Positions 3 to 59,248 of a stretch of DNA of 64,000 nt are shown here, one piece after another. Under the pieces are notes generated by a model that saw nothing but the letters and a program-made list of their open reading frames with translations, had not been told where the DNA came from and ran no database searches. The first letter of the stretch is position 1; each line of letters begins with the position of its first letter. Position numbers and translations under genes: made by a program. The stretch covers positions 22,274,264 to 22,338,263 of the forward strand of contig CM053337.1 in assembly GCA_028583605.1 (NCBI GenBank), given 5' to 3'. The stretch comes from Dastarcus helophoroides (Eukaryota; Arthropoda; Insecta; Coleoptera; Bothrideridae).

Positions 3-501
3 TACTTTGTTTTCTCAAAACTTAATTCTTCAAAATAAAGTGATTGCAATTTTTGGTATCTTTTCTAAAATTTGGATTTTAAACTTTAACTTTTACTCAT
101 TCACTGTTATTTTTTCTAAAAATGTTTACTTCTCTATCGATATTTTAACTTCTTTTAGAGACATTGGCTTCTTTTAAAATTTTGAACCTAATTTTGAACT
201 GTCTGCTCTTTCTTCTCGAAATATCAAGTGTGTTTTGTTTATTAATTTTATTTAACATTTCTTAATAAACATGTTTTCGACCAATAAGAGTCTACCATGA
301 AGAATAATATCAAATACAGTAGAAATCTTGAATAATTTGAACTTTCGTCCTAGCGTCTTTTTTAATAATTTTGAATTGTTTTCGAAATACGACTTAATTA
401 TGAAATGGTATCTTTTCTTTAGAAGTTACAAGAAAGTTTTACATAAATCATATTTTTTATTCAAAACATCGTTTTTAACTCAAAAAGCACGACTCCAATG
501 G
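3..501. repeat. Tandem AT-rich module, copy 1
   Basis: This is the first of two diverged direct copies of an AT-rich module; the second is at 668-1,050. Shared landmarks in order are a block ending in GATTGCAAT, TTTGGATTTTAAACTTTAAC, TTTTAGAGACATTG, CTCGAAATATCAAGTGT and ACATAAATCA. Copy 1 is longer partly because it holds an insertion near 228-305. No coding potential is visible. Confidence 0.75.
228..305 (-). mobile_element. Internally deleted copy of the hammerhead retroposon
   Basis: On the minus strand this 78-bp piece begins like the full element at 28,131 (ATTCTTCATGGTAGAC, then CTTATTG) and soon jumps to that element's 3' end (AAGAAATGTTAAA plus an A-rich tail). The ribozyme and about 600 bp of interior are missing. 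Module copy 2 at 668-1,050 lacks the insertion. AATATCAA occurs on both sides (220-227 and 306-313), as expected of a target-site duplication. The short 5' match makes the identification probable, not certain. Confidence 0.6.
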
Positions 502-9169: not shown

Positions 9170-9325
9170 ATTCTAATGCACAGACCAATAGGTTCGAACA
9201 TTGATTAGATTTGAAGTTTGAAAATCAAAGTTTGGAAACCAAAGACCGGTTTCGATTGAAACCGGTCTTTGGTTTCCAAACTTCGAATCTAATTAATGTT
9301 CAAACATATTGGTCTGTGCATTAGA
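9170..9325. repeat. Long near-perfect hairpin (foldback/MITE-like)
   Basis: The left arm is 9,170-9,253 and the right arm 9,258-9,325, around a 4-nt centre (GATT). The inner stem is CCGGTTTC/GAAACCGG and the outer stem includes ATTCTAATGCACAGACCAAT with its complement. The left arm has a small internal duplication (GAAGTTTG/CAAAGTTTG) that breaks perfect pairing. A small foldback element or MITE is likely; no TSD was recognised. Confidence 0.85.
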
Positions 9326-16515: not shown

Positions 16516-19500
16516 TGACATTTAAAAAGTCGAAAAACCAGCCGCATTTTTAAGTCCTAAGGGGGTAACAAATGTTTTATTAAATATTAAAAAATGTCAG
16601 CACTTTCTTGTGTAAGCTAAAAATTAGGTTTTCTAAAACAATTTTGGCTCAACAAGACAACGTTTTGAAATGTCGAAAGTTTCAAAAAAAAAATCGAAAA
16701 TTTTAATAGTTGACATTTTGAAAACTGTAAAATGTTTTAAAAAAGTCGAACTTTTTAAAAAAGGTTGAAATTTTTTAATCAGGACGAAATTTTAAAAAAG
16801 GTCCAGATTTTGAAAAAAAAAACGAAATTTTCAACAAAATCTAAATTTTCAAACAAATCGAAACGTTTAAAAAAATTTTTCAAATAAAAGTCGACATTTA
16901 AAGAAAAGCCGAAATTTCGAAAATAAGTGGTAACTTTCAAAAGTCAAAACTTCGAGAAAAGATCAAAAATTTAAAAAATAATTGGAGTTTTTAATAAAAA
17001 ATGAAAATCATCAAAAATCAAAATTTTCCAAAAAATTTGGAAAATCGAAATTTTCCAAATTTGGTGAAAAAAACTTCACATCAGAATAGTCGAAATTAAC
17101 AACAACAAAAATATCAAAATTCGAGCAAAATCAAATTTAAAGTAAAAATCGAATTTTTAAAAAGGCAAAATTTTGAAAGATTCAACATTTAAAAAAGTTT
17201 AAATTTTCACAAAAAGTAAATATTTTAATAAAGCCATAAGTTTTCAAAACAGTAGAATTTTTGGTAAATTTAAAAATTTCCAAAAAAAGTTAAAATTGAA
17301 AGAAAAAATCAAATTTTTGAAAAACGGTCGAATTTCAAAAAATAAATTGTAAAATGCGGAAATTCTCACAAAAAATCAAAATTTCTAGGAACATCCGAAC
17401 GAAATTCTTAACAAAAGTGGAAATTTTCAAATTTTTCAACATCCTGAAAAAGGTCAACATTTTGAAAGATTCCAATTTTCGTAGAAAGAAAATCGAAATT
17501 TCGAGAAAAAATTTGAAATATCTGTACAAAAAAGTCGAAATTTTAGGAAAGTAATCCATCGGTTATTACTTTTTTTCAGAAACATATCAAAATGCGGAAG
17601 CAATGGAAAATTTTCCTAACATTTTTTCGTTTCTTTCCAAAATCTTGACATTTTTATAAAAATGTTAGAATTTTTTTCCAAAAGTTGTTAAACAGAATTA
17701 TAAAATAAACTTTGAAATGTCAAAACGCCGTGAAAAAACCTAACATTTTTAAAAGCAAATTAGAGGAACAAAAAATCGGGAGAAGTTGAAATTTCCAGAA
17801 AAAATTTTAAAAACAAATTTGCTGGAAAAGTAGAAATTTCGAGAAAATTTATTTATATAATATATTTAGGAAAATAGAAACTTTCCAAAAAACTTTTCCA
17901 ACAAAAAAATCAAAATGTTAGAAAAAATTAAAAATTTTTCTACAATACAGTGGAAATTGCGAAATCGGGTAAAGACTCGAAGATTTGGTATTATTTTTTT
18001 TCCAGAGAAATATCAAAATATAAAAAGAGTTGGATTTATATTGTTTCTTGAAATTTTCGTTATTGTCTCAAAATTTTGACACTTAGAGAAATTTAACAAT
18101 TTTTTTCGAAATTTCAATTCTTTCTCGAAATATTGATTTCTTTTTCAAAAGTTTTACAAAAATTAGTTTTTAAAAATGCGTTTTCATCAAAATTAAAAAT
18201 AAAATACATTTTAGAAGATCCTAACATGAAAGAAAGATAAGGTTCCTATAAAAGAAATCAGAGAAAATTTAAAATTTCAATAAAAAAGTTTTTAATGAAA
18301 AGTCTTTAAAAAAGACCCAACACTTTGAAAAAAAACTTTAAAGCGGAATTACGGGTGCTGCAGTTCCTCAATGCATATACGCGAGCCGCCCCTGGGTATA
18401 TGTCAGTTTATAAATTGACATCTTTAGAGTTTTTATTCGTGTTTATTGCAACATTACATTCTGAAGGATTTTTTGTTAAAAATTTTGTCAATACCTTAGC
18501 CTTCTCTAGGAATTTCAATGTAATGTAAACAATATTTAGAAATAATTACCATAGCAATAGTCCCTTTGCCTGCGGGGATTTTGATGGCAACAAACATGCA
18601 ATTAGATTATACAGGGTGTTTTCGAAAAAATGCCATAACTGAAGGGGCAAAATGTTTGAACGATTTTAAGAAAGAAAAGTTTATATCTGCATACCTTCGC
18701 TTCATTTTTAAGATGCAGGGTGCTAAAAATTAAGAAAAAATTCAATTTTTCCTTCAATACCGTTTGAAATATTTTTTTAAATTTTGGTAGATAATAACTG
18801 GGCATAAAAATGCATTTTCTGCGAGTAAAATATTTGTTCTACTGCTATCAGTGGCGTCCGCAATATCATTACCCTGAGTAATCTTAACGAAAAAAATGGC
18901 AAGTCACTGCGTTTTTTAAATACAAGTACCAATTTCATAAACAACCTTAACTTCTTGGTAAAAATCCTCTCTTGAATTTTTTAGGTGGCGAATGCTTTTG
19001 CATTAAAAAATCATTTACCTTTAAAAAACCATTATGTTGACTTACTTCATGCTATGGCTTTATTAATTATTAAAAATACTTATTTAAAAAAAAAATATAT
19101 GTAAATTATCTAACATAAATTTTCCCTAATAGTCCACAATGACCAAAGTTCTCTTAAAATGACATATTACTTTGTAGAAAGGGATATCAAGGGCCCATTG
19201 AAATGCAAAGAAATTCATTTTATTTTTTTTTATCAAAAACCATTCATCGGACAAAAAAAGTTAAGAAGAAATTTGTTATTAACGAATAAAAAGCATGAAT
19301 GAAAACCTTATCTATTTTGAAAAAAAAATCAGTAGCGTGATTTTTTTTTTATTTTGATTAAAAATGTTCAAGGACATGTTAATCGAAAACTTCGTTCTAG
19401 GAAAAAAATCTGGGGCGGAATTTTTACCAAGAAATAAAGGATGTTTATGAAATTTATACTTCTTTTGGGAAATTTTGCATTATAATGAAAAGATATCGAT

Positions 19501-27500: not shown

Positions 27501-28130
27501 TGTTCTCTCAATTTTAACTTTTTTTGAAAATTTTGAAATTTACCAAAAACTCTGCTGTTTTGAAAACTTACGGCTTTATTAAAATATTTACTTTTTGTGA
27601 AAATTTAAACTTTTTTAAATGTTGAATTTTTCAAAATTTTGCCTTTTTGAAAATTCGATTTTTACTTTAAATTTGATTTTGCTCGAATTTTGATATTTTT
27701 TTTTGTTAATTTCGACTATTCTGATGCAAAGTTTTTTTCACAAAATTTGGAAATTTCGATTTTCCAAATTTCTTGAAAAATTTTGATATTTGATGATTTT
27801 CATTTTTTATTAAAAACTCTAATTACTTTTTAAATTTTTGATCTTTTTTCGAAGTTTTGACTTTTGAAAGTTACGACTTATTTTCGAAATTTCGGCTTTT
27901 CTTTAAATGTTGACTTTTGTTTGAAAATTTAGATTTGTTTGAAAATTTAGTTTTTTTTGAGAATTTCGTTTTTTTTTAAATCTGGACCTTTTTTAAAATT
28001 TCGTCCTGATTAAAAAATTTCAACCTTTATTAAAAATATCGACTTTTTTAAAACATTTTACAGTTTTTCAAAATGTTAACCATTAAAATTTTCGATTTTT
28101 TTTTTGAAACTTTCGACATTTCAAAATGTT

Positions 28131-28793
28131 ATTCTTCATGGTAGACCCTTATTGACCGGAAATATTATGAGTGAGTGAGTGAGTGCTTCTAACTACCAAA
28201 CTGAATAGATTTCAGCGGTTAGGAACAGTAGTCACCAAGAGCATGTAAGTTCAACCCACAAGTGTAGTTCAATGCCGGAAGGAGTATTAGCCCTCGGAGT
28301 AGTTGTTTCTTGTGGATTGGGCTTCAAATATTTAAATTTTGAACACAGTAAATTAATGATGAAACGTCTATTCATTTTAAAATTTCTTTATTTTTCTTTT
28401 TTATATTTAAAAAAAAAAAATTTATTTTTAAGTATTTCTTCCCCATTGTTCCCTTTCCATGTTATGCACTGCTGACGAGCTCAAATGAGAGCGAAACATC
28501 GATGTCCAGTGCTACAACCTCTTTTATGTATTTTTTTATATTTTCCTAATTTATCAAAAAAACAAAATTTTTATTTTTTCCATATCTAATTTTTGGTCTC
28601 CTATTTTTCATTATTCCTATTCTATGTAAAATAAACTAACCTTTTAATTTGTAAACTATCATGAAGTGACGTTTTCAATAAATTTAAATATCACGTAGTC
28701 GCATTTCAAAAACTGTTTATAAAATTGTCAACAAACCATAAAAATTTAAATATTTCCAACTGGGCCGAAGAAATGTTAAACAAATTGAAAAAA
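28131..28793 (+). mobile_element. Hammerhead-carrying retroposon, full copy
   Basis: The element is delimited by a perfect 15-bp direct repeat, ACATTTCAAAATGTT, at 28,116-28,130 and 28,794-28,808. The uninterrupted site is kept in the left arm of inverted repeat 1 at 16,659-16,673 (one mismatch). The 5' end reads ATTCTTCATGGTAGAC. A GTGA microsatellite follows near 28,170, then a GTTCAACCC string at 28,249-28,257 that fits a pol III B-box core. The ribozyme lies in the middle, and the 3' end is GGGCCGAAGAAATGTTAAAC followed by an A-rich tail. The long variable TSD, A-rich end and 5' truncation of a sister copy (50,604-50,758) point to target-primed reverse transcription. It encodes no recognisable protein, so it should be a SINE-like or Penelope-derived non-autonomous element. 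A-box evidence is weak. Confidence 0.85.
28466..28512 (+). ncRNA. Type I hammerhead ribozyme
   Basis: All conserved parts of a hammerhead are present in order. Stem I is GCACTG (28,466-28,471) pairing with CAGTGC (28,507-28,512). The core CTGACGA is at 28,472-28,478. Stem II is GCTC/GAGC with the loop AAATGA. GAAA is at 28,493-28,496. The short stem III, ACAT/ATGT, closes on two bases. Cleavage is expected after C28,506 in the GUC triplet. Every stem pair is Watson-Crick and no core base is missing. The very short stem III is typical of hammerheads carried by Penelope-like and other retroelements, which often act best as dimers. Activity is inferred, not shown. Confidence 0.9.
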
Positions 28794-28975
28794 ACATTTC
28801 AAAATGTTGTCTTGTTGAGCCAAAATTGTTTTAGAAAACCTAATTTTTAGCTTACCAAAGAAAGTGCCGACATTTTTTAATATTCAATAAATCCGTTTGT
28901 TACCCCCTCAGGACTTAAAAATGCATCCTGTTTCGAAATTTTTTTTTTAATTTTTCGAAAATTTCGACTTTTTAA

Positions 28976-30869: not shown

Positions 30870-31184
30870 TCATATTCGAGCCTCACCCGTAAATCTTTTT
30901 CTCGTAAATGGCTCTCTAGGGCCGTGATTGAAATAATATTTCAATCGGCCCTCATTATCGTCGATTTCTCTTTGTGTTTTCGTTCCGCGGGCGATGCAGC
31001 AAACAAAAGCAAGCATCAAAACGGCAATGATAACCCCCCCGCAAATAAATGGGTGAGAAATGTATTTGTACAATTTCCAAAGTGGCATTATTATACAGCT
31101 GGTGAGAGCCAGATAGAAACAAATGCATTTCCATTTATAAACGCGGGGGTTATTAAAGCCGATATCGCGGGGCGTCGGGGCCAT
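30870..31184 (-). CDS. Candidate exon/small gene: two-helix membrane protein
   Basis: This is the only open frame in the window that reads like real protein. It has 104 codons, mixed codon use and far higher GC than its surroundings. Two hydrophobic helices are visible at about residues 20-36 and 46-65, with basic residues just outside each (K17, K19; K37, K40; R66, K69). That suggests a hairpin in a membrane with both ends on the cytosolic side. There are six cysteines in or beside the helices and a charged tail from about residue 66. No signal peptide is seen. The ATG is in a good context (AACATGG) and an in-frame TGA lies 12 bases upstream. Near the 3' end CGG|GTGAGG is a strong splice-donor match, so the exon may really stop at 30,887 (phase 1) rather than at the TGA. 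I do not recognise the family. The overlapping plus-strand frame at 30,924-31,229 is probably a shadow. Confidence 0.55.
   Translation of the reverse strand: MAPTPRDIGFNNPRVYKWKCICFYLALTSCIIMPLWKLYKYISHPFICGGVIIAVLMLAFVCCIARGTKTQREIDDNEGRLKYYFNHGPREPFTRKRFTGEARI
30919..30951. other. Palindrome inside the candidate exon
   Basis: GGGCCG, two unpaired bases, ATTGAAAT, three bases, ATTTCAAT and CGGCCC form a nearly perfect hairpin within codons 78-89 of the candidate exon. It could be coincidental, an RNA structure, or the mark of a decayed element. Confidence 0.6.
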
Positions 31185-31742
31185 TGTTCAGATCATTTCA
31201 AAAGGTTCAAAGGCTGCTTTTTCCATTAAGATCTCCCGATTGGGGGAATTCAATCGCCACCGCGGATATTACGATACACGATAAATAATTGTTTAGGGGA
31301 ATATCTCGACACGAATTCTCTTGCTTAAAATTCAAGCTGTCTGGCGATCGAAACATCTAAATAACGTTTCTCGGGCACTATTTTATTATTTGAAGGTGGG
31401 ATTAAACCTTCGAGATAACGAGCCTTATTTGTAAGAGATTAAAATTCCTAAAAATTACACGAGGAGTTATTAACACCCGAGTGAAAGAACTTCGGAAAAA
31501 GATGGATGGTTTACACGAAACGTTCGTGATTAGCTCAATGGAACATGGGCTGAAACAATTCTGTTTTATTCAGATTTAATGGCGCTTAGATGTTTACATT
31601 AATTTATGTCATAAATTTAATTAAGGGACTAAATTTAGAGAGACAACTCGTTTTGTTTACTGCAACGTCATGAACAGATCTCGTCTTTTTAACAACACAT
31701 AAACGTGTAACTGTGAAATAGTAAGATGCAAATGAAGAACAT
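31185..31742. other. Unique sequence upstream of the candidate exon
   Basis: Complex AT-rich sequence with GC-richer patches. If the exon is real this holds its 5' UTR, upstream intron or promoter. I see no clear TATA box or start-site motif and no repeat. Confidence 0.4.
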
Positions 31743-31913
31743 TGTTCAAAAATTGAAATACAAATCTTGTCCCCTGAAACCAGATGATAGCTTGGCTATC
31801 GAAACGTGTTGGAGCAACCTTTGTTGTGCTTTATAATCTTTCTTGGTTTCAGGGGACAAGATTTGTATTTCAATTTTTGAACATAACCAAGGACCAGTCC
31901 GTTCCACCAAGAA
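31743..31913. mobile_element. Foldback family A element with perfect 40-bp arms
   Basis: 31,743-31,782 and 31,844-31,883 are perfect inverted repeats of 40 bp (outer TGTTCAAAAATTGAAATAC, inner CCCCTGAAACCA). They surround a 61-bp centre with GATGATAGCTTGGCTATCG. The family end AACCAAGGACCAGTCCGTTC then continues to 31,913. The centre is a deletion derivative that lost the 5' part of the hammerhead-like core seen in sister copies. Confidence 0.9.
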
Positions 31914-32546: not shown

Positions 32547-32600
32547 TAGCTGATGCCCGCGACTTCGTCCACGGAATTAAATGAATAATTTCCTTTGGTA
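32547..32600 (+). mobile_element. LINE-tail-like remnant
   Basis: AGCTGATGCCCGCGACTTCG followed by TCCACGG resembles a motif very common near the 3' ends of non-LTR retrotransposon remnants in arthropod genomes. Only the motif is preserved; the following sequence is unfamiliar. Family assignment is from memory and uncertain. Confidence 0.45.
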
Positions 32601-33267: not shown

Positions 33268-33600
33268 AAGAGCCAAAATTCAAAATTTCAAAATTTCAAA
33301 ATTTCAAAGTTTCAAAATTTCAAAATTTCAAAATTTCAAAATTTCAAAATTTCAAAATTTCAAAATTTCAAAATTTCAAAATTTCAAAATTTCAAAATTT
33401 CAAAATCTCAAAATTTCAAAATTTCAAAATTTCAAAATTTCAAAATTTCACAAATTCACAATTTCAAGATTTCAAAATTTCAAGATTTCAAAATTTCACA
33501 ATTTTAAAATTTCAAAATTCCAAGATTCAAAATTTCAAAATTCCAAGTTTCAAAATTTTAAAATTTCAAGATTCAAAATTCCAAGATTCAAAATTTCAGA
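33268..33600. repeat. 8-bp satellite (TTTCAAAA)n, array 1
   Basis: Long head-to-tail run of the octamer TTTCAAAA, nearly perfect at 33,300-33,440 and then mixed with AAGATT and CACAATT variants. The octamer stays open in all frames, giving periodic KFQNFKIS-type translations that are not genes. Confidence 0.95.
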
Positions 33601-33944
33601 AAAGGAACCAACAGGTCCTTGTACAAGAACTCTGATTTTGGTAATTTTAAACACATTATGAATTTTTTCAAAATTTCTTAACTTATTTAAAAATTTCAAC
33701 ATTTTATTTTTTATATGACTGAAAGAGTTGTTGAGAGTGAAAGAGTTGAAATTTTTAAAATAAGTCGAAAAGTTCAAAAGAACCAAAATTTTCGTAAAAC
33801 TTGATAATCGAAATTAAAAAAACTCAATAACCGTTAAAAAAGTGAAAATATTTTTAAAAAATAAAACAAAATCAATTGAGTTATTAACTGTCGAAACCTT
33901 CAAATGTAGTATTTGAAATTCTTTTAACATTCAGTATTCAACGT
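33601..33944. repeat. Spacer block between octamer arrays, copy 1
   Basis: Begins with GGAACCAACAGGTCCTTGTA and runs through GAGAGTGAAAGAGTTG, AATCAATTGAGTTATTAACTG and TTCAGTATTCAACGTTC. It is nearly identical to 34,336-34,690, so the block plus its array was duplicated with a period of about 735 bp. Confidence 0.85.
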
Positions 33945-34335
33945 TCAAATTTCACAAATTCAAAATTTCAAAATTTCAAAATTTTAAAATTTCAAAATTT
34001 CAAAATTCCAAGATTCCAAATTTCAAAATTTCAAAATTTCAAAATTTCAAAATTTCAAAATTTCAAAATTTCAAAATTTCAAAATTTCAAAATTTCAAAA
34101 TTTCAAAATTTCAAAATTTCAAAATTTCAAAATTTCAAAATTTCAAAATTTCAAAATTTCAAAATTTCAAAATTTCAAAATTTCACAAATTCACAATTTC
34201 AAGATTTCAAAATTTCAAGATTTCAAAATTTCACAATTTCAAAATTCCAAGATTCAAAATTTCAAGATTCCAAGTTTCAAAATTTTAAAATTTCAAGATT
34301 CAAAATTTCAAAATTCCAAGATTCAAAATTTCACA
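33945..34335. repeat. 8-bp satellite (TTTCAAAA)n, array 2
   Basis: Second long TTTCAAAA run, almost perfect over 34,020-34,180, ending with the same CACAAATTCACAATTTCAAG variants as array 1. Confidence 0.95.
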
Positions 34336-34690
34336 AAAGGAACCAACAGGTCCTTGTACAAGAACTCTGATTTTGGTAATTTTAAACACATTATGAATTT
34401 TTTCAAAATTACTTAACTTATTTAAAAATTTCAACATTTTATTTTTTATATAACTTTGAAAGAGTTGTTGAGAGTGAAAGAGTTGAAATTTTTAAAATAA
34501 ATCGAAAAGTTCAAAAGAACCAAAATTTTCGTAAAACTTTTCAATCGAAATTAAAAAAAGTCAATAACCCTTAAAAAAGTGAAAATATTTTTTAAAAATA
34601 AAACAAAATCAATTGAGTTATTTTAATAACTCAATTGATTTTGTCGAAACCTTCAAATGTAGTATTTGAAATTCTTTTAACATTCAGTAT
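34336..34690. repeat. Spacer block between octamer arrays, copy 2
   Basis: Duplicate of 33,601-33,944. It differs by a new perfect palindrome at 34,604-34,643. Confidence 0.85.
34604..34643. repeat. Perfect 40-bp palindrome
   Basis: CAAAATCAATTGAGTTATT at 34,604-34,622, two T bases, and the exact complement at 34,625-34,643. The paralogous block has only the left half followed by AACTG, so the right half is new and copied from the left. Confidence 0.9.
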
Positions 34691-36507
34691 TCAACGTTCA
34701 AATCTCACAAATTCAAAATTTCAAAATTTCAAAATTCCAAGATTCCAAATTTCAAACATTTCAAAATTTGACAATTTCCAAATTTCAAGATTTCAGAATT
34801 TTACAATTTCAAAATTTCACGATTTTAAATTATTAAAAAATTCTAATTGTTAACATTTAATATTGAACATTCAAAAAATTCAAAATTTTAAAAATTCTAA
34901 AATCCAAATTTCAAAATTTCACAATTTCAAAATTTTAAAATTTCACAATTTCAAAATTTTAAAATGTCAAAGTTTCAATATCTCAAGGTTTCAACATTTC
35001 AAGATTTCAAAGTTTCAAAATTTCAAAATCAAAATTTCACAATTTCAAGATTCCAAGATTTAAAATTTCAAAATTTCAACATTCAAAATTTCACAATTTC
35101 AAAATTTCTAGATTCCAAGATTTAAAATTTCAAAATTCCAAGATTTAAAATTTCAAAATTTGTAAATTTCAAAATTTGTAATCTTCAAAATTTGTAAATT
35201 TCAAAATTTTAAAATCTCAAAATTTCATAATTTTAAAATTTCAAAATTCTAAGATTCAAAATTTCAAAATTTCAAAATTTTAAAATCTCAAAATTTCAAA
35301 ATTTTAAAATCTCAAAATTTCAAGATTTCAAAATTTCACAATTTCAAAATTTCAACATTCAAAATTTTACAATTTCAAAATTTCTAGATTTCAAGATACA
35401 AAATTTCAAAATTCCAAGATTCAAAATTTGTAAATTTGTAAATTTCAAAATTTTAAAATTTCAAAATCTCAAAATTTCAAAATTTTAAAATCTCAAAAAT
35501 TTCAAAATTTTAAAATCTCAAAATTTCAAAATTTTAAAATCTCAAAATTTCAAAATTTTAAAATCTCAAAATTTCAAGATTCAAAATTTCAAAATTTCAG
35601 AATTTCAAAATTTCACAAACTCACAATTTCAAGATTTCAAAATTTCAAGATTTCAAAATTTCACAATTTCAAAATTTTAAAATGTCAAAGTTTCAATATC
35701 TCAAGGTTTCAACATTTCAAGATTTCAAAGTTTCAAAATTTCAAAATCAAAATTTCACAATTTCAAGATTCCAAGATTTAAAATTTCAAAATTTCAACAT
35801 TCAAAATTTCACAATTTCAAAATTTCTAGATTCCAAGATTTAAAATTTCAAAATTCCAAGATTTAAAATTTCAAAATTTGTAAATTTCAAAATTTGTAAT
35901 CTTCAAAATTTGTAAATTTCAAAATTTTAAAATTTCAAAATTTTAAAATCTCAAAATTTCATAATTTTAAAATTTCAAAATTCTAAGATTCAAAATTTCA
36001 AAATTTCAAAATTTTAAAATCTCAAAATTTCAAAATTTTAAAATCTCAAAATTTCAAAATTTCAAGATTTCAAAATTTCACAATTTCAAAATTTCAACAT
36101 TCAAAATTTTACAATTTCAAAATTTCTAGATTTCAAGATACAAAATTTCAAAATTCCAAGATTCAAAATTTGTAAATTTGTAAATTTCAAAATTTTAAAA
36201 TTTCAAAATCTCAAAATTTCAAAATTTTAAAATCTCAAAAATTTCAAAATTTTAAAATCTCAAAATTTCAAAATTTTAAAATCTCAAAATTTCAAAATTT
36301 TAAAATCTCAAAATTTCAAAATTTTAAAATCTCAAAATTTCAAGATTCAAAATTTCAAAATTTCAGAATTTCAAAATTTCACAAACTCACAATTTCAAGA
36401 TTTCAAAATTTCAAGATTTCAAAATTTCACAATTTCAAAATTCCAAAATTCAAAATTTCAAGATTCTAAGTTTCAAAATTTTAAAATTTCAAGATTCAAA
36501 ATTTCAC
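34691..36507. repeat. 8-bp satellite array 3 with a tandem duplication of about 720 bp
   Basis: Variant TTTCAAAA/TTTTAAAA/CTCAAAA octamers. A unit starting AAAATGTCAAAGTTTCAATA at 34,961 restarts at 35,679 (period 718) and both copies follow the same order of variants to about 35,680 and 36,430. The second copy is longer by extra AAAATTTTAAAATCTC units. The near-identity implies a recent duplication. Confidence 0.92.
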
Positions 36508-40913: not shown

Positions 40914-41068
40914 AAACTGAAATACAAATCTTGCCCCTGAAACCAAGAAAGATCAAAAAACACAACAGAGGTTGCTCTAACGAGTTTCGATAGCCAAGTT
41001 ATCATCTTCAGAGATACTAACACCTAATCCTTCTTTGAAGATAACCAAGGACCAATCCGTTCCCCCAA
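40914..41068 (-). mobile_element. Foldback family A element, half copy
   Basis: Contains GAAATACAAATCTTG, CCCCTGAAACCAAGAAAG, AACACAACAGAGGTTGCTC, then the hammerhead-like core on the minus strand (40,974-41,014: CTCTGAAGATGATAAC, CTATCGAAACTCGTTAGAG). It ends with the CCAAGGACCAATCCGTTC tip. The second half is reduced to a stub. Confidence 0.85.
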
Positions 41069-42179: not shown

Positions 42180-43500
42180 ATTCCTCCAAATTTCGATTTA
42201 ATCATTTTGAATTAAAGCCAAAATTTTGGGTTTAAAATTTAAATGTTTAAAAAATAATAAGCAAAATAGAATTCCGATCACCTGAAAAAATGGAGATAAA
42301 TTTGTGTGGAGATATATTCCTCAACGTCGTCAGCTCTTTACGCGTATAAGTAACTTTAAATACAATCGCGTGTATTGCATATATTTTAAGTGGTTTTTAA
42401 TATCCATTTTTACCACTTTGGAGGCTGAGTTTTGACAAATACTTACCTAGTGCTCGCCTACGTATTGTGGGGAATGCATGTGCGAAATTTTATGCAGTAC
42501 AGGATATACTTCTTCCGGGATTGGACCGTGTCAAAGAACTACTACACCATCGTAGGAGGCTTCTTCAGGAACAAAGAAAAGAAAAAATGAAAAGAGGAAT
42601 ATGAGAGATTATGCAAAATATAAAAGAATAAAAATTTTGTCGAACACTTTTAGTAGTTCTTTGACACGGCTCAATCCCGAAAGAAGTATATCCTGTACTG
42701 ACTCTGGCCGTGGAAGCCTTCGTTATCGAAATTTTATGCTTTTAGACACGCCGGTCTAAACTATACGTTGTCTGTGACAATCGGTGCTTAGAGATTTGAT
42801 AAGTCGATACAGTGGCGGACCCAAATACATTGCCTTCTTTATTTAGGAATTAAATTTTCAGTTTTTGATTTAGCTTGATCATATTTTTGAGCAAAAATAC
42901 CCTAAAACATTTTTAATTCTTAAACTCTTTAACCATTTTTAAGAGAGAGATTTTTTCTAATTAAAAATAACCGAAACAATTCTTCTACTGACAATTTCTT
43001 TCCTGATAATTTTAATGAAATATTTCTATGCTCATTTAAAAGAACATGGAATGTTATGTAAATTTTTGAAATTTCACCGAAAACTAATGTTTAAATATAT
43101 AAATAATACAGGCGATTAAGCCTGTATTATTTATTATAGATATTTTAAATGGTTTTTAATTTTTACCGCCTTAGAAACTACATTTTGAAAAATCCTCTGT
43201 TGGTGCTCTCCTGCGTATTATGGGGAACACCTGTGCAAAACTTCATGCTTTTAGACACTCAGTTGTCTTGTCTGTCAGTCAGGGTTTTGAGTTTTATTAG
43301 GTAAATAACTCAATCAAACTGACCGGAGCGATTACTTTTGGTTCTCGCTGTAATTTTATGTCGATATTGCGTTCCCTCGTCCTCTACTACTTCGATAGTT
43401 ATCGACTGCTATAACGATCCACAAAAACAACCTCCTAAGCAAAACACTTTTGACGTTACCGACGATTTGCTTTAGGTGAAAGCAGATGGCATTCAGTTGT
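42180..43500 (+). repeat. Inverted repeat 2, left arm
   Basis: Reverse complement of 44,592-45,590. It runs from an AAAGCCAAAATTTTGGGTTT block through CACTTTGGAGGCTGAG, CGCCTACGTATT, ACATTGCCTTCTTTATTTAG and GTTCCCTCGTCCTCTACTAC to AAAGCAGATGGCATTCAG. It carries a foldback element (42,496-42,726) absent from the right arm. Short related duplications continue to about 43,700. Confidence 0.9.
42496..42726 (+). mobile_element. Foldback family B element with 13-bp TSD
   Basis: The 231-bp insert is bounded by CGAAATTTTATGC at 42,483-42,495 and 42,727-42,739. The right arm of inverted repeat 2 shows the uninserted site at 45,288-45,300 (one mismatch on the other strand). The ends fold back: AGTACAGGATATACTTCTTC against GAAGTATATCCTGTACT, and GACCGTGTCAAAGAACTACT against its complement. 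A single-copy tail, GACTCTGGCCGTGGAAGCC, ends the element. A 13-bp TSD is long for common DNA transposons. Confidence 0.88.
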
Positions 43501-45599: not shown

Positions 45600-48500
45600 A
45601 GACATGATGAAGCTTCTTCTACAAATATCAGTATTGCAGTTGTTTTCCCATAAAACCTTCTCTAAAATTCAAAAATGTTCTCATGAAGCATCCTGATCAA
45701 AATAGTTTTGGGCCAAAATGTTGGACATTTGCAAGTTTATCAGTATTTTAACTGTTTTGTCATAAAATATTTTCTTCTTGGACAACCGCAGGCAAAATAA
45801 TGTTATGCTAAAAAGTTGAGTATCTAGTGGTTCATCTGGCAGATGGTTTCTGTGAGTTCTCTAAAATTTCTGTGTTCACTAAAATTCAAAAATATTTTGA
45901 GTCCAACCTCGAGCATTTAGTAGTTCATAAATATTTCAATTGTTTACTCACGAAAAATTCTCTAAAATTCCCAAATATGCTCTTGGTGGTCCATAAGCAA
46001 AATAAATTAATTAATTAAAAAGTTGAATATTTGGTGGTTCATCAGTATTGCAGTTGTTTTCCCATGAAATCTTTCCTTAAATTCAAAAATGTTCTCATGG
46101 AGCATCCTAATCAAAATAGTTTTGAGCCAAAATGTTGGACATTTGCTGGTTCATCAGTATTTCAATTGTTTTGCCATGAAATATTTCCTTCTTGGACAAC
46201 TACAGGCAAAATAATGTTCTTAATAAGTTAGGTATCTGGTGGTTTATCTGGCAGGTGGTTTCTAAGTGTTCACTAACATTTCTATGAGTTCCCTAAAATA
46301 ATGTTTTGAGCTAAACTTTAAACATTTGGTAGTTCATCAGTATTTCAATTGTTTGCTCACGAAAAACTCCATAAAGTTCACAAATATGCTCTTAGTGGCC
46401 CATAGACAATCAAAAGTTGTGTTAAAAAGTTGAATATTTGGTAGTTCATCAGTATTCCAGTTGATTTATCATGAAATCTTCCCTAAAATTTGAAAATGTT
46501 CTCATGGAGCATCCTGATCAAAATAGTTTTGAGCCAAAATGTTGGATATTTACTGGTTCATCAGTATCTCAATTGTTTTGCCATGAAATATGTCCTTCTT
46601 GGACAACCACAGGCAAAATAATGTTGTTAAAAAGTTGGGTATCTGGTGGTTCATTTGGCAGGTGGTTTTTAAGAGTTCAATAAAATTTCTATAAGTTTAC
46701 TAAAATCCAAAAATGTTTGGGCATTTAGTAGTTCATCAGTATTTTAATTGTTTGCTTACGTAAAACTCCCTAAAGTTCACAAATATGCTCTTGGTGGCCC
46801 ATAGGCAACAAAAAGTTATGTTAAAAAGTTAAATATTTGGTGGTTTATCAGTATTGCAGTTGTTTTCCCATGAAATCTTTCCTTAAATTCAAAAATGTTC
46901 TCATGGAACATCCTAATCAAAATAGTTTTGAGCCAAAATATTGGACATTTGCTGGTTCATCAGTATTTCAATTGTTTTGCCATAAAATATTTCCTTCTTG
47001 GACAACCACAGGCAAAATAATGTTGTTAAAAAGTTGAGTATCTGGTGGTTCATTAGGCAGGTAGTTTTTAAGAGTTCACTAAAATTTCTATGAGTTAACT
47101 AAAATCCAAAAATGTTTGGGCATTTAGTAGTTCATCAGTATTTCAATTGTTTGCTTACGTAAAACTCCCTAAAGTTCACAAATATGCTCTTGGTGGCCCA
47201 TAGGCAACAAAAAGTTATGTTAAAAAGTTAAATATTTGGTGGTTCATCAGTAGTGCAGTTGTTTTCCCATGAAATCTTTCCTTAAATTCGAAAATGTTCT
47301 CATGGAGCATCCTAATCAAAATAGTTTTGAGCCAAAATGTTGGACATTTGCTGGTTCATCAGTATTTCAATTGTTATGCCATGAAATATTTCCTTCTTGA
47401 GCAACCACAGGCAAAATAACGTTGTTAATAAAATAGGTATCTGGTGGTTTATCTGGCAGGTGGTTTCTAAGAGTTCACTAGCATTTCTATGAGTTCCCTA
47501 AAATAATGTTTTGAGCTAAACTTTGGACATTTGGTAGTTCATCAGTATTTCAATTGTTTGCTCACGAAAAACTCCATAAAGTTCACAAATATGCTCTTGC
47601 TGGCTCATAGGCAATCAAAAGTTATGTTAAAAAGTTGAATATTTGGTAGTTCATCGGTATTGCAGTTGATTTATCATGAAATCTTCTCTAAAATTTGAAA
47701 ATGTTCTCATGGAGCATCCTAATCAAAATTGTTTTGAGCCAAAATGTTAGACATTTGCTAGTTCATCAGTATTTCAATTATTTTGCCATGAAATATCTCC
47801 TTCTTGGACAACCACAGGCAAAATAATGTTGTTAAAAAGTTGGGTATCTGGTGGTTCATTTGGCAGGTAGTTTCTAAGAGTTTACTAACATTTCTATGAG
47901 TTTACTAAAATTCAAAAATGTTTGAGCATTTAGTAGTTCATCAGTATTTCAATTGTTTGCTTACGTAAAACTCCCTAAAGTTTACAAATATGCTGTTGGT
48001 GGCCCACAGGAAACAAAAAGTTATGTTAAAAGGTTGAATATTTGGTAAATCATCAGTATTGCGTTATTTTCCCATGAAATCTTTCCTTAAATTCAAAAAT
48101 GTTCTCATGAAGCATCCTAATCAAAATAGTTTTGAGCCAAAATGTTGGACAGTTGCTGGTTCATCAGTATCTCAATTGTTTTGCCATGAAATATTTCCTT
48201 CTTGGACAATCACAGGCAAAATAATGTTTAAAAGTTAGGTATCTGATGGTTCATCTGGCAGGTGGTTACTAAGGGTTCACTAAAATTCCTATGAGTTCAC
48301 TAAAATAATGTTTCAGGCTAAACTTTGGGCATTTAGCAGTTCATCAGTATTTCAATTGTTTGCTCAGGAAAAACTCCCTAAAGTTCACAAATATGCTCTT
48401 GGTGGCCCATAGGCAACAAAAAGTTATGTTAAAAAGTTGAATATTTGGTAGTTCATGAGTATTGCAGTTGATTCCCCATGAAATCTGCCCTAAAATTCAA

Positions 48501-49620
48501 AAATGTTCTTATGGAGCATCCTGATCAAAATAGTTTTGAGCCAAAATATTGGACATTTGCTAGTTTATCAGTATTTTAATTGTTTGCCTAGAAATATTTC
48601 CTTCTTGGACAACCATAGGCTAAATAGTGTTATGGTATGGTGGTTCATCTGGCAGGTGGTTTCTATTCACTAAAATTCAAAGATGTTTTGAGCTAAATCT
48701 TATACATCTAGTAGTTCATCAATAATTTAATTGGTTGTTCACGAAAAATTCTCTAACATTCCCAAATATAGTCTTGGTGGTCCATAAGCAAAATAATGTT
48801 ATATCAAAATGTTGTATATTTAGTAGTTCATCAGTATTGAAGCTGTTTTCCCATGAAATCTTCCCTAAAATTCGAAAATGTTCCCATGGAACATCCTGAT
48901 CAAAATAGTGTTGGGGCAAATGTTACACATTTGCTTGTTTATCAGTATTTCAATTGTTTTGCCTTAAAATATTTCCTTCTTGGAGAACCACAGGCAAAAT
49001 AAAGGTAGGTATCCATTTGAGAGTAACTCGCGAGTCTCTCGCGAGAGTACTAGAAAATGAGTTGTCATTTGAGAGACGATTTCTAAAACTTTAACTCGCA
49101 AACATATGTCAAATTGCGAGAACATGATCGATAGCTTCTTCCGCGAGTTTTACTCTTAAATGGACACCTACCATAATGTTATGTTAAAAAGTTGGGCATT
49201 TGGTGGTTCACCTGACCAGTGGTATCTATGAATTTACTAAAATTTCTATGAGTTCACTAAAATTCAAAAATGTTTTGAGCTGCTAAACCTTGAGCATTTA
49301 ATAATTAATCAGTATTTCAACTGTTTGCTCAGGAAAAATTCTCTAAAATTCACAAATATGCTCTTGGTGGTCTATAGACAAAATACTGTTATGTTAAAAA
49401 GTTAAATTTTTGGTGGTTCATCAGTATTGCAGTTGTTTTCCCATAAAACCTTCTCTAAAATTGGAAAATGTTCATATGGGGCATCCTGAACAAAATAGTT
49501 TTGGGCCAAAATGTTAGACATTTGCTAGTACATCAGTATTTCAATTGTTTTGCCATAAAATATTTCCTTTTTGGATAACCACAGGCAAAATGATATTATG
49601 TTAAAAAGTTGGGTACCTAG
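45600..49620 (+). repeat. 400-bp satellite, forward array
   Basis: About ten monomers of roughly 400 bp. The CCCATGAAATCTT marker falls near 46,060, 46,463, 46,863, 47,264, 47,669, 48,071 and 48,474. Each monomer contains three related subunits that begin TTCATCAGTATT and differ in the next bases (GCAGTTGTTTTCCCATG, TCAATTGTTTTGCCATG, TCAATTGTTTGCTCACG). The TTATCATGAAATC variant recurs every third monomer (46,461 and 47,668), showing a higher-order repeat of about 1.2 kb. Many monomers keep a frame of about 65 codons. Confidence 0.92.
49004..49172. mobile_element. MITE inserted in the satellite
   Basis: A 169-bp element interrupts the CAGGCAAAATAATGTTATG satellite string. Its ends GGTAGGTATCCATTTGAGAG and CTCTTAAATGGACACCTACC are inverted repeats with two mismatches, extending into AACTCGCG-like sequence. 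TAA lies on both sides (49,000-49,002 and 49,174-49,176), one base out from each end. A TWA-type 3-bp TSD suggests a PIF/Harbinger-like element; ATAA is also possible. Confidence 0.85.
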
Positions 49621-50407: not shown

Positions 50408-50879
50408 CAAATATCCACCAAAAAAAAAATTCATTTTATTTTGAGAATGTTAACAAGGTTACACGGATTGTATAAAACAAATTCAAGACTTAACTAAATT
50501 TTAACTTTAAAACTGACATTTTAAAGAGGAGATATTCCAAGTCTAAGCTGAAAACTTCAAAGAAAAGTTCAAATTTAGAAGAATTTTCGAGGATAAAATT
50601 TAAGTTTTTTAATTTTATTTAACATTTCTTCGGCCCAGTTTGGCAATTATAAATTTTTATTGTTTGTTGGAAATATTCTAAAAAGTTTTTGAAATATGAC
50701 TACGCGATATTTAAATTTATTTAAAACGTCATCTCATGACAGTTGACAAAATAAAATTAAAATTTAAATAGAAACTTTGAAATAAAAAGAACGCGAGGAG
50801 AAATTTTGGATTTAAATTTAAATTTCTACAAAACTGTTTCTCGAAATTTTGAGCTCAAAGGCAAATTTTGCAAATGACC
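50408..50879 (+). repeat. Duplicated module, copy 2 (filled site)
   Basis: Second copy of 41,832-42,130 in the same orientation, split by the retroposon fragment at 50,604-50,758. Confidence 0.8.
50604..50758 (-). mobile_element. 5'-truncated copy of the hammerhead retroposon
   Basis: On the minus strand this matches the last 155 bp or so of the full element at 28,131-28,793: ATGACGTTTT, AATAAATTTAAATATC.CG, and ACTGGGCCGAAGAAATGTTA with an A-rich end. AAAATTTAA flanks it (50,595-50,603 and 50,759-50,767) and module copy 1 near 42,008 is uninserted. The ribozyme half is missing, as expected of 5' truncation during reverse transcription. Confidence 0.8.
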
Positions 50880-53800
50880 AAATATTTAATTTTTTAACAT
50901 AACATTATTTTGCCTAAGGACCACCAAGAACATATTTGGGAATTTAAGAGAATTTTTCGTGAGCATACAATTGAAATACTAGAGAACTACTGAATGCTCA
51001 AGGTTTAGCTCAAAACATTTTTTAATTTTAGTAAACTTAAAGAAATTTTAGTGAACCCATAAAAACTACCTGCCAGATGAACTACCAGATACCCAACTTT
51101 TTAACATATTATTATTTTGCCTGTGGTTGTCCAAGAAGGAAATGGTTCATGGCAAAACAATTAAAATACTGATGAACTAGCAAATGTCCAACATTTTGGC
51201 TCAAAATTATTTTGATCAGGATGCTCCATGAGAGCATTTTCAAATTTTAGGGAAGATTTCATGAGAAAACAATTGCAATACTGATGAACTATCAAATATT
51301 CTACTTTTTAACATAACATTATTTTGCCTGTAGACCACCAAGAGCATATTTGTGAACTTTACGAAATTTTTCGTGGGTAAACTATTAAAATACTGATGAA
51401 CTACTAAATGAGCAAGGCTGAGCTCAAAACATTTTTTAATTTTAGTGAACTCATGAAAATTATAGTGAACTCATAGAAACCACCTACCAGGATGCTCCAT
51501 GAGAACATTTTTGAATTTTAGAGAATATTTGAAGGGAAAACAACAGCAATACTGATGAACCACCAAATACCCAACTTTTTGATATAACATTATTTTGCTT
51601 ATGGACCACTAAGAGCATATTTGTAAATTTTAGGGAATTTTTTGGGAGCAAATAATTGAAATACTGATGAACTATTAAATGCTCAAGGTTTAGCTCAAAA
51701 CATTTTTGAATTTTAGTAAATTCATAGAAATTTTAGTAAGCTCGTAGAAACCACCTGTCAGATGAACCACCAGATACCAAAGTTTTTAACATAACATTAT
51801 TTCGCCTGTGATTGTCTTAGAAGGAAATATTTCATGGCAAAACAATTAAAATACCGATGAACTAGCAAATGTTCAACATTTTGGTTCAAAAATATTTTGA
51901 TCAGGATGATCTTTTGATCAGAATGCTCCATGAAAACATTTTCAAATTTTAGAAAAGATTTCATGGGAAAACAACTGCAATACTGACGAACCATCAAATA
52001 CCCAACTTTTTAACATAACATTATTTTGGCTATGGACCACCACGAGCATATTTGTGAATTTTAGAGGACTCTTCGTGAGCAAACAATAGAAATACTGATG
52101 AACTAGTAAATACTCAAGATTTAACTCAAAACATTTTTGGACTTTGGTGAACTCATAGATAAACTGCCAATTGCTGAGCATTTTCAATTTTTACGTTTAC
52201 GTGTCAATATAGAGCATGCCTCTAATTTTGCCCTTCGATGGCTTTATCCAACAGCTATGTTTTGTTGGTTTTTAAATAAAACAAAAGTAACAATAACCGT
52301 TCGCCGTTTTTCACTATTCATTTCATAGGAAAACAACTTCAATACTGATGAACTACTAAATACACAACTTTTTGATGTAACATTATTTTGCTTATGGACC
52401 ACCAAGACCATATTTGGGAATTTTAGAGAATTTTTTGTGAACAACCAATTGAAATATTGATAAATTTAAGATGCTTAAGATTTTGCTCAAAACATTTTTG
52501 AATTTTAGTGAAGTAATAGAAATCACCTGCCAGATGAACCACCAGATACTTTTTAACATAACATTATTTAACCTATGGTTGTGCAAGGAGAAAATATTTT
52601 ATGGTAAAACAATTAAAATACTGGTGAACTAGCAAATGTCTAACATTTTCGCCCAAAACTATTTTGATCAGGATGCTCCATGAGAACATTTTTGAATTTA
52701 AGGGAAGATTTCATGGCAAATCAACTGCAATACTCATGAACTAACAAATATTCAACTTTTTAACATAACTTTTTGTTGCCTATGGGCCACCAAGAGCATA
52801 TTTGTGAACTTTAGAAAATTTTTCGTGAGCAAACAATTAAAATACTGATGAACTACTAAATGCCCAAAGTTTAGCTCAAAAAACTAAATGCCCAAACATT
52901 TTTGGATTTTAGTAAACTCATAGAAATTTTAGTGAACTCTTAGAAACCACCTGCCAGATGAACCACCAGATACCCAAGTTTTTAACAACATTCTTTTGCC
53001 TGTGGTTATCCAAGAAGGAAATATTCCATGGTAAAACAATTGAAATACTGATAAACTAGCAAATGTCCAAAATTTTGGCTCATAACTATTTTGATCAGGA
53101 TGCTTCATGGGAACATTTTCGAATTTTAGAGAAGATTTCATGGGAAAACAACTGCAATACTGATGAAGCACCAAATATTCAACTTTTTAACGTAATATTA
53201 TTTTGCCTATGGATCACCAAGAGCGTATTTGTCAATTTTAGAGAATTTTTCGTAATCAAACAATTGAAATACTCATGTATTACTAAATGCTGAAGGTTTA
53301 GTTCAAAACATTTCTGAATTTTAGTAAACTCCTAAAAATTTTACTGAACTCTAGAAACCACGTGCCAGATGAACCACCAGATACCCAACGTTTTAATATA
53401 ACATTATTTTACCATTGGTTGTCCAAGAAGGAAATATTTCATTGCAGAACAGTTGAAATACTGATGAACTAGCAAATCTCCAACATTTTGGCGCAAAATT
53501 ATTTTGATCAGGATGCTTCATGAGAACATTTTCGAGTTTTAGAGAAGATTTCATGGGCAAACAACTGCAACACTGATGAACTACCAAATATTCGACTTTT
53601 TAACGCAACATTATTTTGCCTATGGACCACCAAGAGCATATTTGTTAATTTTAGAGAATTTTTCGTGAGCAAAGAATTGAAATACTGATGAACTAGTAAA
53701 TGCTTAGGGTTTATTTCAAACCATTTTTAAATTTAAGTGAACTCATAAAATGTCAGTAAGTTCATAGAAACCACCTGCCAGATGAACCACCAGATACCCA

Positions 53801-54885
53801 ACATTTTAACATAACATTATTTTGTCTGTGGTTGTCCAAGAAGGAAATATTTCATGGCAAAACAGTTTAAATATTGATAAACTGGCAAATCTCCAAAATT
53901 TTGGCGCAAAACTATTTTGATCACGATGCTCCATGAGAACATTTTGAATTTTAGAGAAGATTTCATGGGAAAACAACTGTAATACTGATGAACCACAAAA
54001 TATTTAACTTTTTAAGATATTATTATTTTACCTATGGACCACCAAGAGCATATTTGTAAATTTTAGAGAAGTTTTTGTACGCAAACAATTGAAATTCTGA
54101 TGAACTAGTAAATTTTTGAACATTTTTGAATTTAAGTGAACTTGTAGAAATCTCAGTAAGCTCATAGAAACCACCTGCCAGATGAACCACCAGATACCCA
54201 ACTTTTCAACATAACATTATTTTGCCTGTGGTTGTCCAAGAAGAAAATATTTCATGGCAAAACACTTGAAATATTGATGAACTAGCAAATCTCCAAAATT
54301 TTGGCCCAAAACCATTTTGATCAGGATGCTCCATGAGAACATTTTCGAATTTTAGAGAAGATTTCATAAAAAAAGAACTACAATACTGATGAACCACCAA
54401 ATATTCAACTTTTTACCATAACATTATTTTGCCTATGGACCACCAAGACCATATTTGTGATTTTAGAGAATTTTTCGTGAGCAAACAATTGAAATACGGA
54501 TGAACTACTAATTGCTCAAGGTTTAGCTCAAAACATTTTTGAATTTTAGTGAACTCACAGAAATTTTAGTGAACTCATAGAAACCACCTGTCAGGTGAAC
54601 CACCAGATGCCCAAATTTTTAACATAACATTATTTTGCCTGCGGTTGCCCAAGACGGAAATCTTTCATGGCAAAACAATTGAGATACTGATGAACTAGCA
54701 AATGTCCAACATTTTGGCCCAAAACTATTTTGACCAGGATGCTTCATGAAAATATTTTCAAATTTTAGAGAAGATTTCATGGGAAAACAATGCAATACCA
54801 TCAACTTTTTAGCATAAAATTATTTTACTTTTGATGGTCCAAGGGGAATTTTTAAATTTTAGAGGATATTTTACGACAAAACAAT
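50880..54885 (-). repeat. 400-bp satellite, reverse array
   Basis: The same monomer as 45,600-49,620 in the opposite orientation: CTGATGAACYACYAAATATTC, TAACATAACATTATTTTGCC, GGATGCTCCATGAGAACATT and AAACCACCTGCCAGATGAAC recur about every 400 bp. The two arrays are similar in length. One monomer is interrupted at 52,169-52,316. Confidence 0.92.
52169..52316. other. Foreign segment within the reverse satellite array
   Basis: About 150 bp unrelated to the satellite replaces roughly half a monomer, between GAACTCATAGATAAACTG and ATTTCATAGGAAAAC. No inverted ends or TSD are evident and no other copy is seen in the window. Confidence 0.65.
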
Positions 54886-58385: not shown

Positions 58386-59248
58386 CTGTCCTGGAAGGAA
58401 AAAGGAAAAACGAAGAAAGAAGGGAGAAGATGGAAGAAGGAGAAATGAGGAAGGAAGAAGGAAGAATAAATAAGGAATAAGGAAGAAGGGAGAAGATGGA
58501 AGAAGGAGAAAAGAAGAAGGAAGAAGGAAGAAGGAAGAAGGAAGAAGGAAGAAGGAGGAAGGAAGAAGGAAGAAGAAAGAAGGAAGAAGGAAGAAGGAAG
58601 AAGGAACAAGGAACAAGGAACAAGGAAGAAGGAAGAAGGAAGAAGGAAGAAAAAAGAAGGAAGAAGGAAGAAGGAAGAAGGAAGAAGGAAGACGGAAGAA
58701 GGAAAAAGGAAGAAGGAAGAAGGAATAAGGAAGAAGGAAGAAGGAAGAAGGAAGAAGGAAGAAGGAAGAAGGAAGAAGGAAGAAGGAAGAAGGAAGAAGG
58801 AAGAAGGAAGAAGGAAAAAGGAAGAAGGAAGAAGGAAGAAGGAAGAAGGAAGAAGGAAGAAGGAAGAAGGAAGAAGGAAGAAGGAAGAAGGAAGAAGGAA
58901 GAAGGAAGAAGGAAGAATAAATAAGGAAGAAGGAAGAAGGGATCAGGAAGAAGGAAGAAGAAAGAAGGAAGGAGGAAGAAGGAAGAAGGAAGAAGGAAAA
59001 AGGAAGAAGGAAGAGGGGAGCAGGAAGAAGACAGACGGAAGAAAAAAGAAGAAAGAAGAAAAAAGAAAGAAGAAAAAAGAAAGAAGAAAGAAGAAAGAAG
59101 AAAGAAGAAAGAAGAAGAAAGAAGAAAGAAGAAAGAAGAAAGAAGAAAGAAGAAAGAAGAAAGAAGAAAGAAGAAAGAAGAAAGAAGAAAGAAGAAAGAA
59201 GAAAGAAGAAAGAAGAAAGAAGAAAGAAGAAAGAAGAAAGAATAACAA
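58386..59248. repeat. Polypurine heptamer arrays (GGAAGAA)n and (GAAGAAA)n
   Basis: 58,386-59,040 is mostly the 7-bp unit GGAAGAA. 59,040-59,245 switches sharply to GAAGAAA. The plus strand is almost pure purine. A minus-strand frame of 385 codons (58,338-59,495) made of SSFFLLP repeats, and the plus-strand K/E/G/R frame, are artefacts of the stop-free heptamer. Confidence 0.95.

Follow-up and report, generated by a model that had tools for sequence, protein, structure and literature searches.

The systems closest to the element described here are Penelope-like elements (PLEs) and metazoan non-LTR retrozymes. In published PLEs, a single inverted pLTR bears a tail of 31 bp, and the target-site duplications have a size of 8 to 10 bp (PMC3846280). 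With the purified anole PLE, RT starts at two internal sites bracketing the tail, and both target strands are cut and extended in vitro (PMC11167929). According to the same source, mutants of the anole PLE hammerhead inserted normally, and the hammerhead cleaved only with added protein (PMC11167929). The minimal PLE hammerhead is described as lacking helix III or loop-loop contacts, and the role of PLE hammerheads was called "still a mystery" in that review (PMC7761336).

Metazoan non-LTR retrozymes (Cervera and de la Peña 2020, PMC7229834) are non-coding, AT-rich tandem repeats whose units of 150 to 450 bp contain a single type I hammerhead each. They occur in insects as well, their stem III is weak, and axolotl dimers cleave better than monomers. 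The mover of such animal hammerhead repeats was left open in 2020, with PLEs as a strong candidate (PMC7229834). Another insect repeat hammerhead was described from Aedes aegypti (Perreault et al. 2011, PMC3088659). Its stem and loop III pair fully, over 10 bp, in a hypothetical dimer, and the tested RNA showed no cleavage.

The element analyzed here (family A) shares with PLEs the tandem and inverted terminal units, a tail of 30 to 40 bp at one end, the target-site duplications, and a type I hammerhead. Unlike PLEs, its unit carries neither an RT nor a GIY-YIG gene, and its hammerhead is more complete than the minimal variant of PLEs. It resembles retrozymes in its non-coding, AT-rich tandem units with a single type I hammerhead each and in its weak stem III, but its units are longer (708 bp); moreover, the available text on retrozymes describes neither head-to-head arms nor a one-end tail (PMC7229834). 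Like the Aedes hammerhead, it is of repeat type, comes from an insect and has a stem III of 10 nt that could pair fully between two molecules. In its behavior, family A is like an element mobilised by PLEs, whereas in content it is like a retrozyme. It is filed under neither class without qualification, because no ORF of an autonomous PLE was found in it and because 708 bp exceeds the retrozyme unit size. The insertion at 28131-28793 is probably a non-coding, non-autonomous, retrozyme-like copy of this family, with a predicted hammerhead, that was made by PLE-type machinery.

Hammerhead motif in the window

Analysis of the window, which is the whole 64,000-nt stretch of DNA under study (C13:22274264-22338263), with a hammerhead descriptor revealed a single match, located on the + strand (Table 1). 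The motif reads GCACTG-CTGACGA-GCTC-AAATGA-GAGC-GAA-ACATCGATGT-C-CAGTGC and shows the characteristics of type I hammerheads, namely the core CUGANGA...GAAA...UH, three helices, and an open stem I. A previous reading based on the sequence only had proposed a complete hammerhead without deviation in the core, and the letters, the descriptor, and the match to Rfam HH9 agree with this. The cut predicted by that reading, after C28506, is likewise in agreement with the helices. Stem III had been drawn as ACAT/ATGT closed by two bases. A stem III is present, but since a 2-nt loop is sterically poor, it was redrawn as either 3 bp closed by UCGA or a fully palindromic 10-mer for a dimer. Stem I extends outward past its 6 bp, with UGU/ACA beyond a UAU/U internal loop.

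Table 1. Coordinates of the features identified in the window (position 1 is the first base of the window)
Feature	Position	Strand	Basis or remark
Type I hammerhead ribozyme (predicted)	28466..28512	+	Read from sequence, descriptor match, Rfam HH9
Stem I	28466-28471/28507-28512	+	
Core CUGACGA	28472-28478	+	
Stem II	28479-28482/28489-28492	+	
GAA of core	28493-28495	+	
Stem III palindrome	28496-28505	+	
Base before predicted cut	C28506	+	
Hammerhead including outer stem I	28460..28516	+	
Outer stem I UGU/ACA	28460-28462/28514-28516	+	
Stem I internal loop UAU/U	28463-28465/28513	+	
663-bp insertion with hammerhead, family A copy	28131..28793	+	Target-site duplication, empty site, genome copies
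Inverted left arm, reduced to tail bases 670-708 of the unit (39 of about 40 nt)	28131..28169	-	
Right arm, unit 41 to end of A run, without tail	28179..28793	+	
Target-site duplication ACATTTCAAAATGTT (15 bp), left copy	28116..28130	.	
Target-site duplication ACATTTCAAAATGTT (15 bp), right copy	28794..28808	.	
Paralogous empty site	16541..16800	-	Joined flanks of 28131-28793 match 232/247 aligned bases
Second family A copy, 5'-truncated, without tail or hammerhead	50605..50755	-	Upper border approximate
Third, tiny copy, inverted tail plus last ~26 nt of unit	228..305	-	Lower border approximate

The occurrence of the motif by chance was determined in shuffled and simulated sequences. On both strands together, the descriptor gave 36 matches when the window was dinucleotide-shuffled 5,491 times (stem I at least 6, stem II at least 3, stem III at least 3) and 18 matches when 296 Mb of simulated second-order Markov sequence was scanned (at least 6, 4, and 3, respectively). 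The loose core pattern by itself was not above chance, with 20 matches in the window compared to a shuffle mean of 33.6. In the genome, the pattern CTGANGAGN(12)CGAAAC was found 4,227 times on the + strand and 4,275 times on the - strand (8,502 matches), and the reversed control of CTGANGAGN(12)CGAAAC was found 2 + 1 = 3 times.

At the gathering thresholds, no Rfam family matched the window. A covariance model search, which had been suggested as a check on the first reading, did produce a hit when an E-value threshold was applied, with HH9 (RF02275) as the best match, but its score of 37.5 bits is below the curated cut-off of 52. The E value was 6.9e-6 over the 64 kb window and 4,227 families and 1.5e-7 over 1.4 kb. 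HH9, which we take to be an amniote intronic ribozyme, corresponds to the window motif in stem II (GCUC/GAGC) and in the alignment of loop I (UUAY/UAC). In contrast, the outer stem I of HH9 is unpaired here in the HH9 register.

Insertion structure of family A

The window copy is a composite, the left arm of which consists of inverted tail alone, whereas the right arm extends from unit position 41 to the A run. Its GC content is 0.296. The similarity of the right arm continues 4 bases into the target-site duplication. At 16.7 kb on the opposite strand, the two flanks of the insertion adjoin each other directly. The second family A copy is identical to the window element at 131 of 160 aligned bases. 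The tiny third copy is flanked by an apparent duplication, TTGATATT, and carries no hammerhead. Insert-free paralogous sites were found for both minor copies in weaker, gappy alignments (143/195 and 138/174 bases). Two border assignments were discarded: ATTCTTCATGG as the genuine 5' end, which had been read from the window only, because the genome copies show an inverted tail there, and an extension of the 50-kb copy to 28588, which reflected AT similarity. No Pfam match was obtained with the 88-aa frame in the window copy, and no relatives of the element ends or of this frame were found in IMG/VR or GTDB contigs.

The search of the element's own genome (539 Mb, 50 contigs) revealed 139 listed matches, with 40 of 2,301 candidates scored; the closest other copies within this scope reached 98% identity with the window copy. 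The matches were grouped into 40 places, which scored highest against a query of full length and in which long young copies are therefore over-represented. Four loci were excluded as repeats, namely L009 (of L020), L011 and L012 (of L015), and L022 (of L008). Similarity pieces of at most 24 nt or at most 20 bits and a single isolated piece at the L043 edge were likewise left out.

The family A unit has a length of 708 bp, as measured on one copy (L014:1994-2701). In this copy, the 5' end AAACCTATTCC is followed by CTGACGA at position 347, the predicted cut after position 381, an A run to position 668, and a 40-nt tail. The units are AT-rich, non-coding, and tandem, with one type I hammerhead each, and the longest closed frame among 53 units of at least 550 bp comprises 99 aa. 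In the fetched tandem arrays, each unit follows immediately on the previous one, at a spacing of about 708 bp; the tail is retained between them, and no ORF lies between them.

Head-to-head composites, with inverted arms and 5'-truncated inner ends, were found at 29 of the 40 places. Every one of these 29 composites has exactly one outer end with the tail of about 40 nt. The other end is clean and tail-less in 26 of them and cut short in L016, L024, and L025. The remaining 11 places contain single-orientation inserts, six with a tail (L013, L028, L036, L038, L042, and L044) and five without (L007, L010, L034, L035, and L092). Target-site duplications were tested at 39 of the 40 places. Exact duplications of at least 8 bp were present at 29 of them; these were found for 26 of the 29 composites and for 3 of the 10 tested inserts of single orientation. 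At the 10 places without such a duplication, eight had none and two had 5 to 6 bp, which is the level of random borders.

The distances between units had a median of 1.1% within a place (16 pairs) versus 2.7% between places (1,310 pairs), and 13 of the 23 units of multi-unit places had their nearest relative in their own place. In L017, a 3-nt insertion that is absent from all others of the 52 units is present in both arms. The distances and this shared insertion indicate that the arms often derive from one template lineage. The array at L013 mixes lineages, with neighbours that are 1.4 to 1.6% apart, one of which differs by just 0.14% from a unit located on a different contig. This result indicates that copying of a single circle is too simple an account of the arrays, and a rolling-circle origin of tandem arrays as the rule is thus unsupported. 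Cleaved RNA as the template was considered as well and found no support: none of 60 truncation points was located within 5 nt of the cut, compared with about 0.9 expected for an even distribution. The predicted cut position is spanned by 63 segments. The truncation data exclude just a strong preference for the predicted cut.

PLE genes and the origin of family A

Analysis of the genome for PLE genes, in which 150 of 1,070 candidates were scored, revealed GIY-YIG matches at 91 places. GIY-YIG was above the cut-off in L049 and L052, and L054 contains an RT frame with an RVT_1 score of 28.1 bits, slightly below the cut-off of 29.6. The motif CTGA.GATG...CGAAACG was present in 7 of 16 loci fetched around GIY-YIG matches, and in 5 of these 16 loci it was positioned on the strand of the endonuclease frame, 122 to 146 nt past it. 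The sequence-only reading had described a minimal stem III and had pointed to PLEs as carriers of such hammerheads. The window motif is not the minimal PLE hammerhead: it is fuller, and the PLE loci of the genome carry a different, minimal-looking motif. The part of that reading that is supported is an intact type I hammerhead in a mobile element, the insertion structure of which is Penelope-like.

Comparison with 24 PLE loci revealed no autonomous PLE sharing the unit ends of family A. Family A itself was found in one of the 24 loci (L076), as a diverged head-to-head fragment of about 120 bp with a tail. Of the two further hammerhead families described below, family B had matches in L055 and L078, and family C had matches in L051, L053, L077, and L089. 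In L053, a core-changed family C hammerhead (1163-1210, +) runs into a PLE endonuclease frame (1396-1743, +). Two stretches of the window, 31743-31883 and 40979-41011 (-), resemble the minimal motif of the PLE loci (CTGAAGATG..CGAAACG), and both deviate from a proper hammerhead. One of these copies sits in a perfect 40-nt inverted repeat, and one is on the minus strand.

Family A is in close agreement with the mechanism of the anole PLE (PMC11167929). The target would be cut on both strands by Penelope-type machinery acting in trans, and each target strand would be extended on element RNA from one of two internal starts about 40 nt apart. Such alternative starts would leave a tail at one outer end and none at the other, and the two cDNAs would join within the insert in head-to-head orientation. 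The hammerhead would cut the transcripts after the base equivalent to C28506 and split tandem transcripts into units. Cleavage probably would proceed best in an RNA dimer joined via the palindromic stem III, and it may have a role in mobility.

Alternatively, the unit could be the pseudo-LTR of an unfound autonomous PLE, with the arrays as its pLTR-only derivatives, an explanation that we consider rather unlikely. The hammerhead would then be that PLE's own, unusually full one, and no trans action on a separate family would be needed. In its favor, all insertion traits are PLE traits, the PLE loci compared number 24 versus 1,070 GIY-YIG candidates, and the tail ends with ACCATGAAGAAT, which has an ATG where other PLEs start an ORF within the pLTR plus tail (PMC3846280). 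It is opposed by the tandem units that abut without an intervening ORF, by the different motif past the frame in endonuclease loci, and by the presence of family A in just one PLE locus, as a short diverged fragment. Mobilisation of a separate family by PLE proteins is the preferred explanation. Family A combines the PLE insertion signature with a non-coding element that has a fully formed hammerhead, and it does so at dozens of sites of a single assembled genome that also contains PLE genes. This coexistence makes mobilisation in trans and cleavage as a dimer directly testable. A literature search, which covered few subscription journals, did not reveal the one-tail PLE architecture on a non-coding hammerhead element.

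Hammerhead families, conservation, and further observations

Comparison of 52 near-full units from 39 places revealed an intact core in 48 of them; the core is altered in one unit each of L015, L025, L034, and L044. There were 17 distinct hammerhead windows among these units, and 34 units are identical to the version of the window. Selection on the hammerhead was not demonstrated in a comparison with all 47-nt windows of the unit, among which it ranked at the 9th percentile and was not clearly more conserved than the rest. The sequence-only reading had stated that the transcripts self-cleave or did so recently; the 48 intact cores and the copies up to 98% identical support recent self-cleavage indirectly.

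The shares of the hammerhead families were counted by eye in the first 100 places listed, all on one contig, with near variants counted with their family. Twelve belonged to family A (stem II GCUC/GAGC), 76 to family B (GAUC/GAUC), which was the commonest in this sample, and 11 to family C (GGCC/GGCC), and there was 1 other. Family B has the sequence GGA UAU ACCAAA CUGACGA GAUC UAACAA GAUC GAA ACCGGU A UUUGGU U UCC, and family C has ACCAUG/UAUGGU and the stem III ACUAGU. Both families, for which L025:1011-1063 (-), L062, and L064 provide examples, often occur as head-to-head or tandem pairs, with a tandem spacing of 366 bp for family B in L062 and 466 bp for family C in L064. With respect to a possible tertiary contact between loops I and II, the UAU/U internal loop is common to families A and B, the letters of loop II differ, and family C differs in loop I; this comparison refers to letters only. 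The outer stem I of family B covaries with that of family A.

Covariation, which supports the helices, was analyzed with five measures across the three families in an alignment fitted to the model (65 matches, 39 distinct rows). Both sides changed in 11 of 16 pairs, and 95.6% of the cells pair, compared to at most 50.0% in slid versions of the alignment. The covariation score and the paired cells exceeded those of all 500 shuffles. The number of pairs changed on both sides (31 of 500 shuffles as high) and the further pair types (129 of 500), two of the five measures, showed no clear excess.

Stem III is palindromic in all three families (ACAUCGAUGU, ACCGGU, and ACUAGU). In families B and C, the palindrome leaves no loop, which points to dimers. 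The MFE structure predicted for the family A homodimer was the exact double hammerhead, with a gain of -11.3 kcal/mol. After shuffling of stem III, the dimer gain was -6.3 ± 3.0, and 3 of 50 shuffles matched -11.0. The predicted MFE structure of the family B dimer was not a double hammerhead. In the predicted family A monomer and in the 708-nt unit, linear or circular, the pair probability of stem III was 0.01. The first reading had noted that hammerheads of this kind often work as dimers; the palindromic stem III of the window copy would suit a dimer.

It is quite improbable that the hammerhead is the relic of a decayed fossil that cleaves in no copy and was spread by neutral copying. The score below the Rfam gathering threshold, the stem III that is unformed in the predicted monomer, the conservation, which barely exceeds that of other parts of the unit, and the core changes in 4 of 52 units would be compatible with a fossil. 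This explanation is contradicted by the number of units with an intact core or with the exact hammerhead of the window, by the high identity of the closest copies, and by the core and helices that are kept with different letters in three families of one genome.

A further proposal, a long shot, is that the stem III palindrome joins two element RNAs and that this RNA pair is the template of the PLE-type insertion. One RNA would be copied from each cut strand, and one from each internal start. If true, paired templates would explain both the two arms with exactly one tail per head-to-head insert and the palindromes kept in the three families.

A SINE-like element mobilised by a LINE, with an incidental hammerhead, is scarcely credible, although the sequence-only reading had mentioned such hammerheads in some SINE-like repeats: the variable target-site duplications, the A-rich end of the window copy, and one B-box-like match at 28266 would suit it, but the 5' part has no tRNA or other Rfam match (E ≤ 10) except a chance miRNA, no A box was detected by two patterns, the other copies end in the tail of about 40 nt and not in poly(A), and all 29 composites have one tail, head-to-head arms with one tail being, to our knowledge, not a trait of LINEs or SINEs.

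Searching viral contigs revealed CTGAYGAGCTCN(6)GAGCGAAAC in four IMG/VR contigs (L001 to L004) with unrelated flanks. None of these motifs reached the Rfam hammerhead cut-off; judging by their letters, the flanks of L002:6914-6939 (-) might fold into stems I and III. In the window, a 105-aa frame at 30870-31187 (-) is located in a GC-richer stretch and has the appearance of a membrane-protein exon; it had no Pfam match above the cut-off, and one homology search revealed no homologue. A putative TE tail at 32551-32569 is reminiscent of those in arthropods. Two hairpins, at 42500-42695 (-) and 9191-9305 (-), gave weak matches to miRNA families (E values of 0.0011 and 0.0005, far under the curated cut-offs) and are probably inverted repeats. 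Long simple-repeat arrays, composed of CAAAATTT octamers and GAAGGAA heptamers, are located at 33274-36506, 58394-59242, and 63178-63999. Two satellite arrays with units of about 400 bp, at 45627-49002 and 51217-54798, are positioned in mutually opposite orientations.
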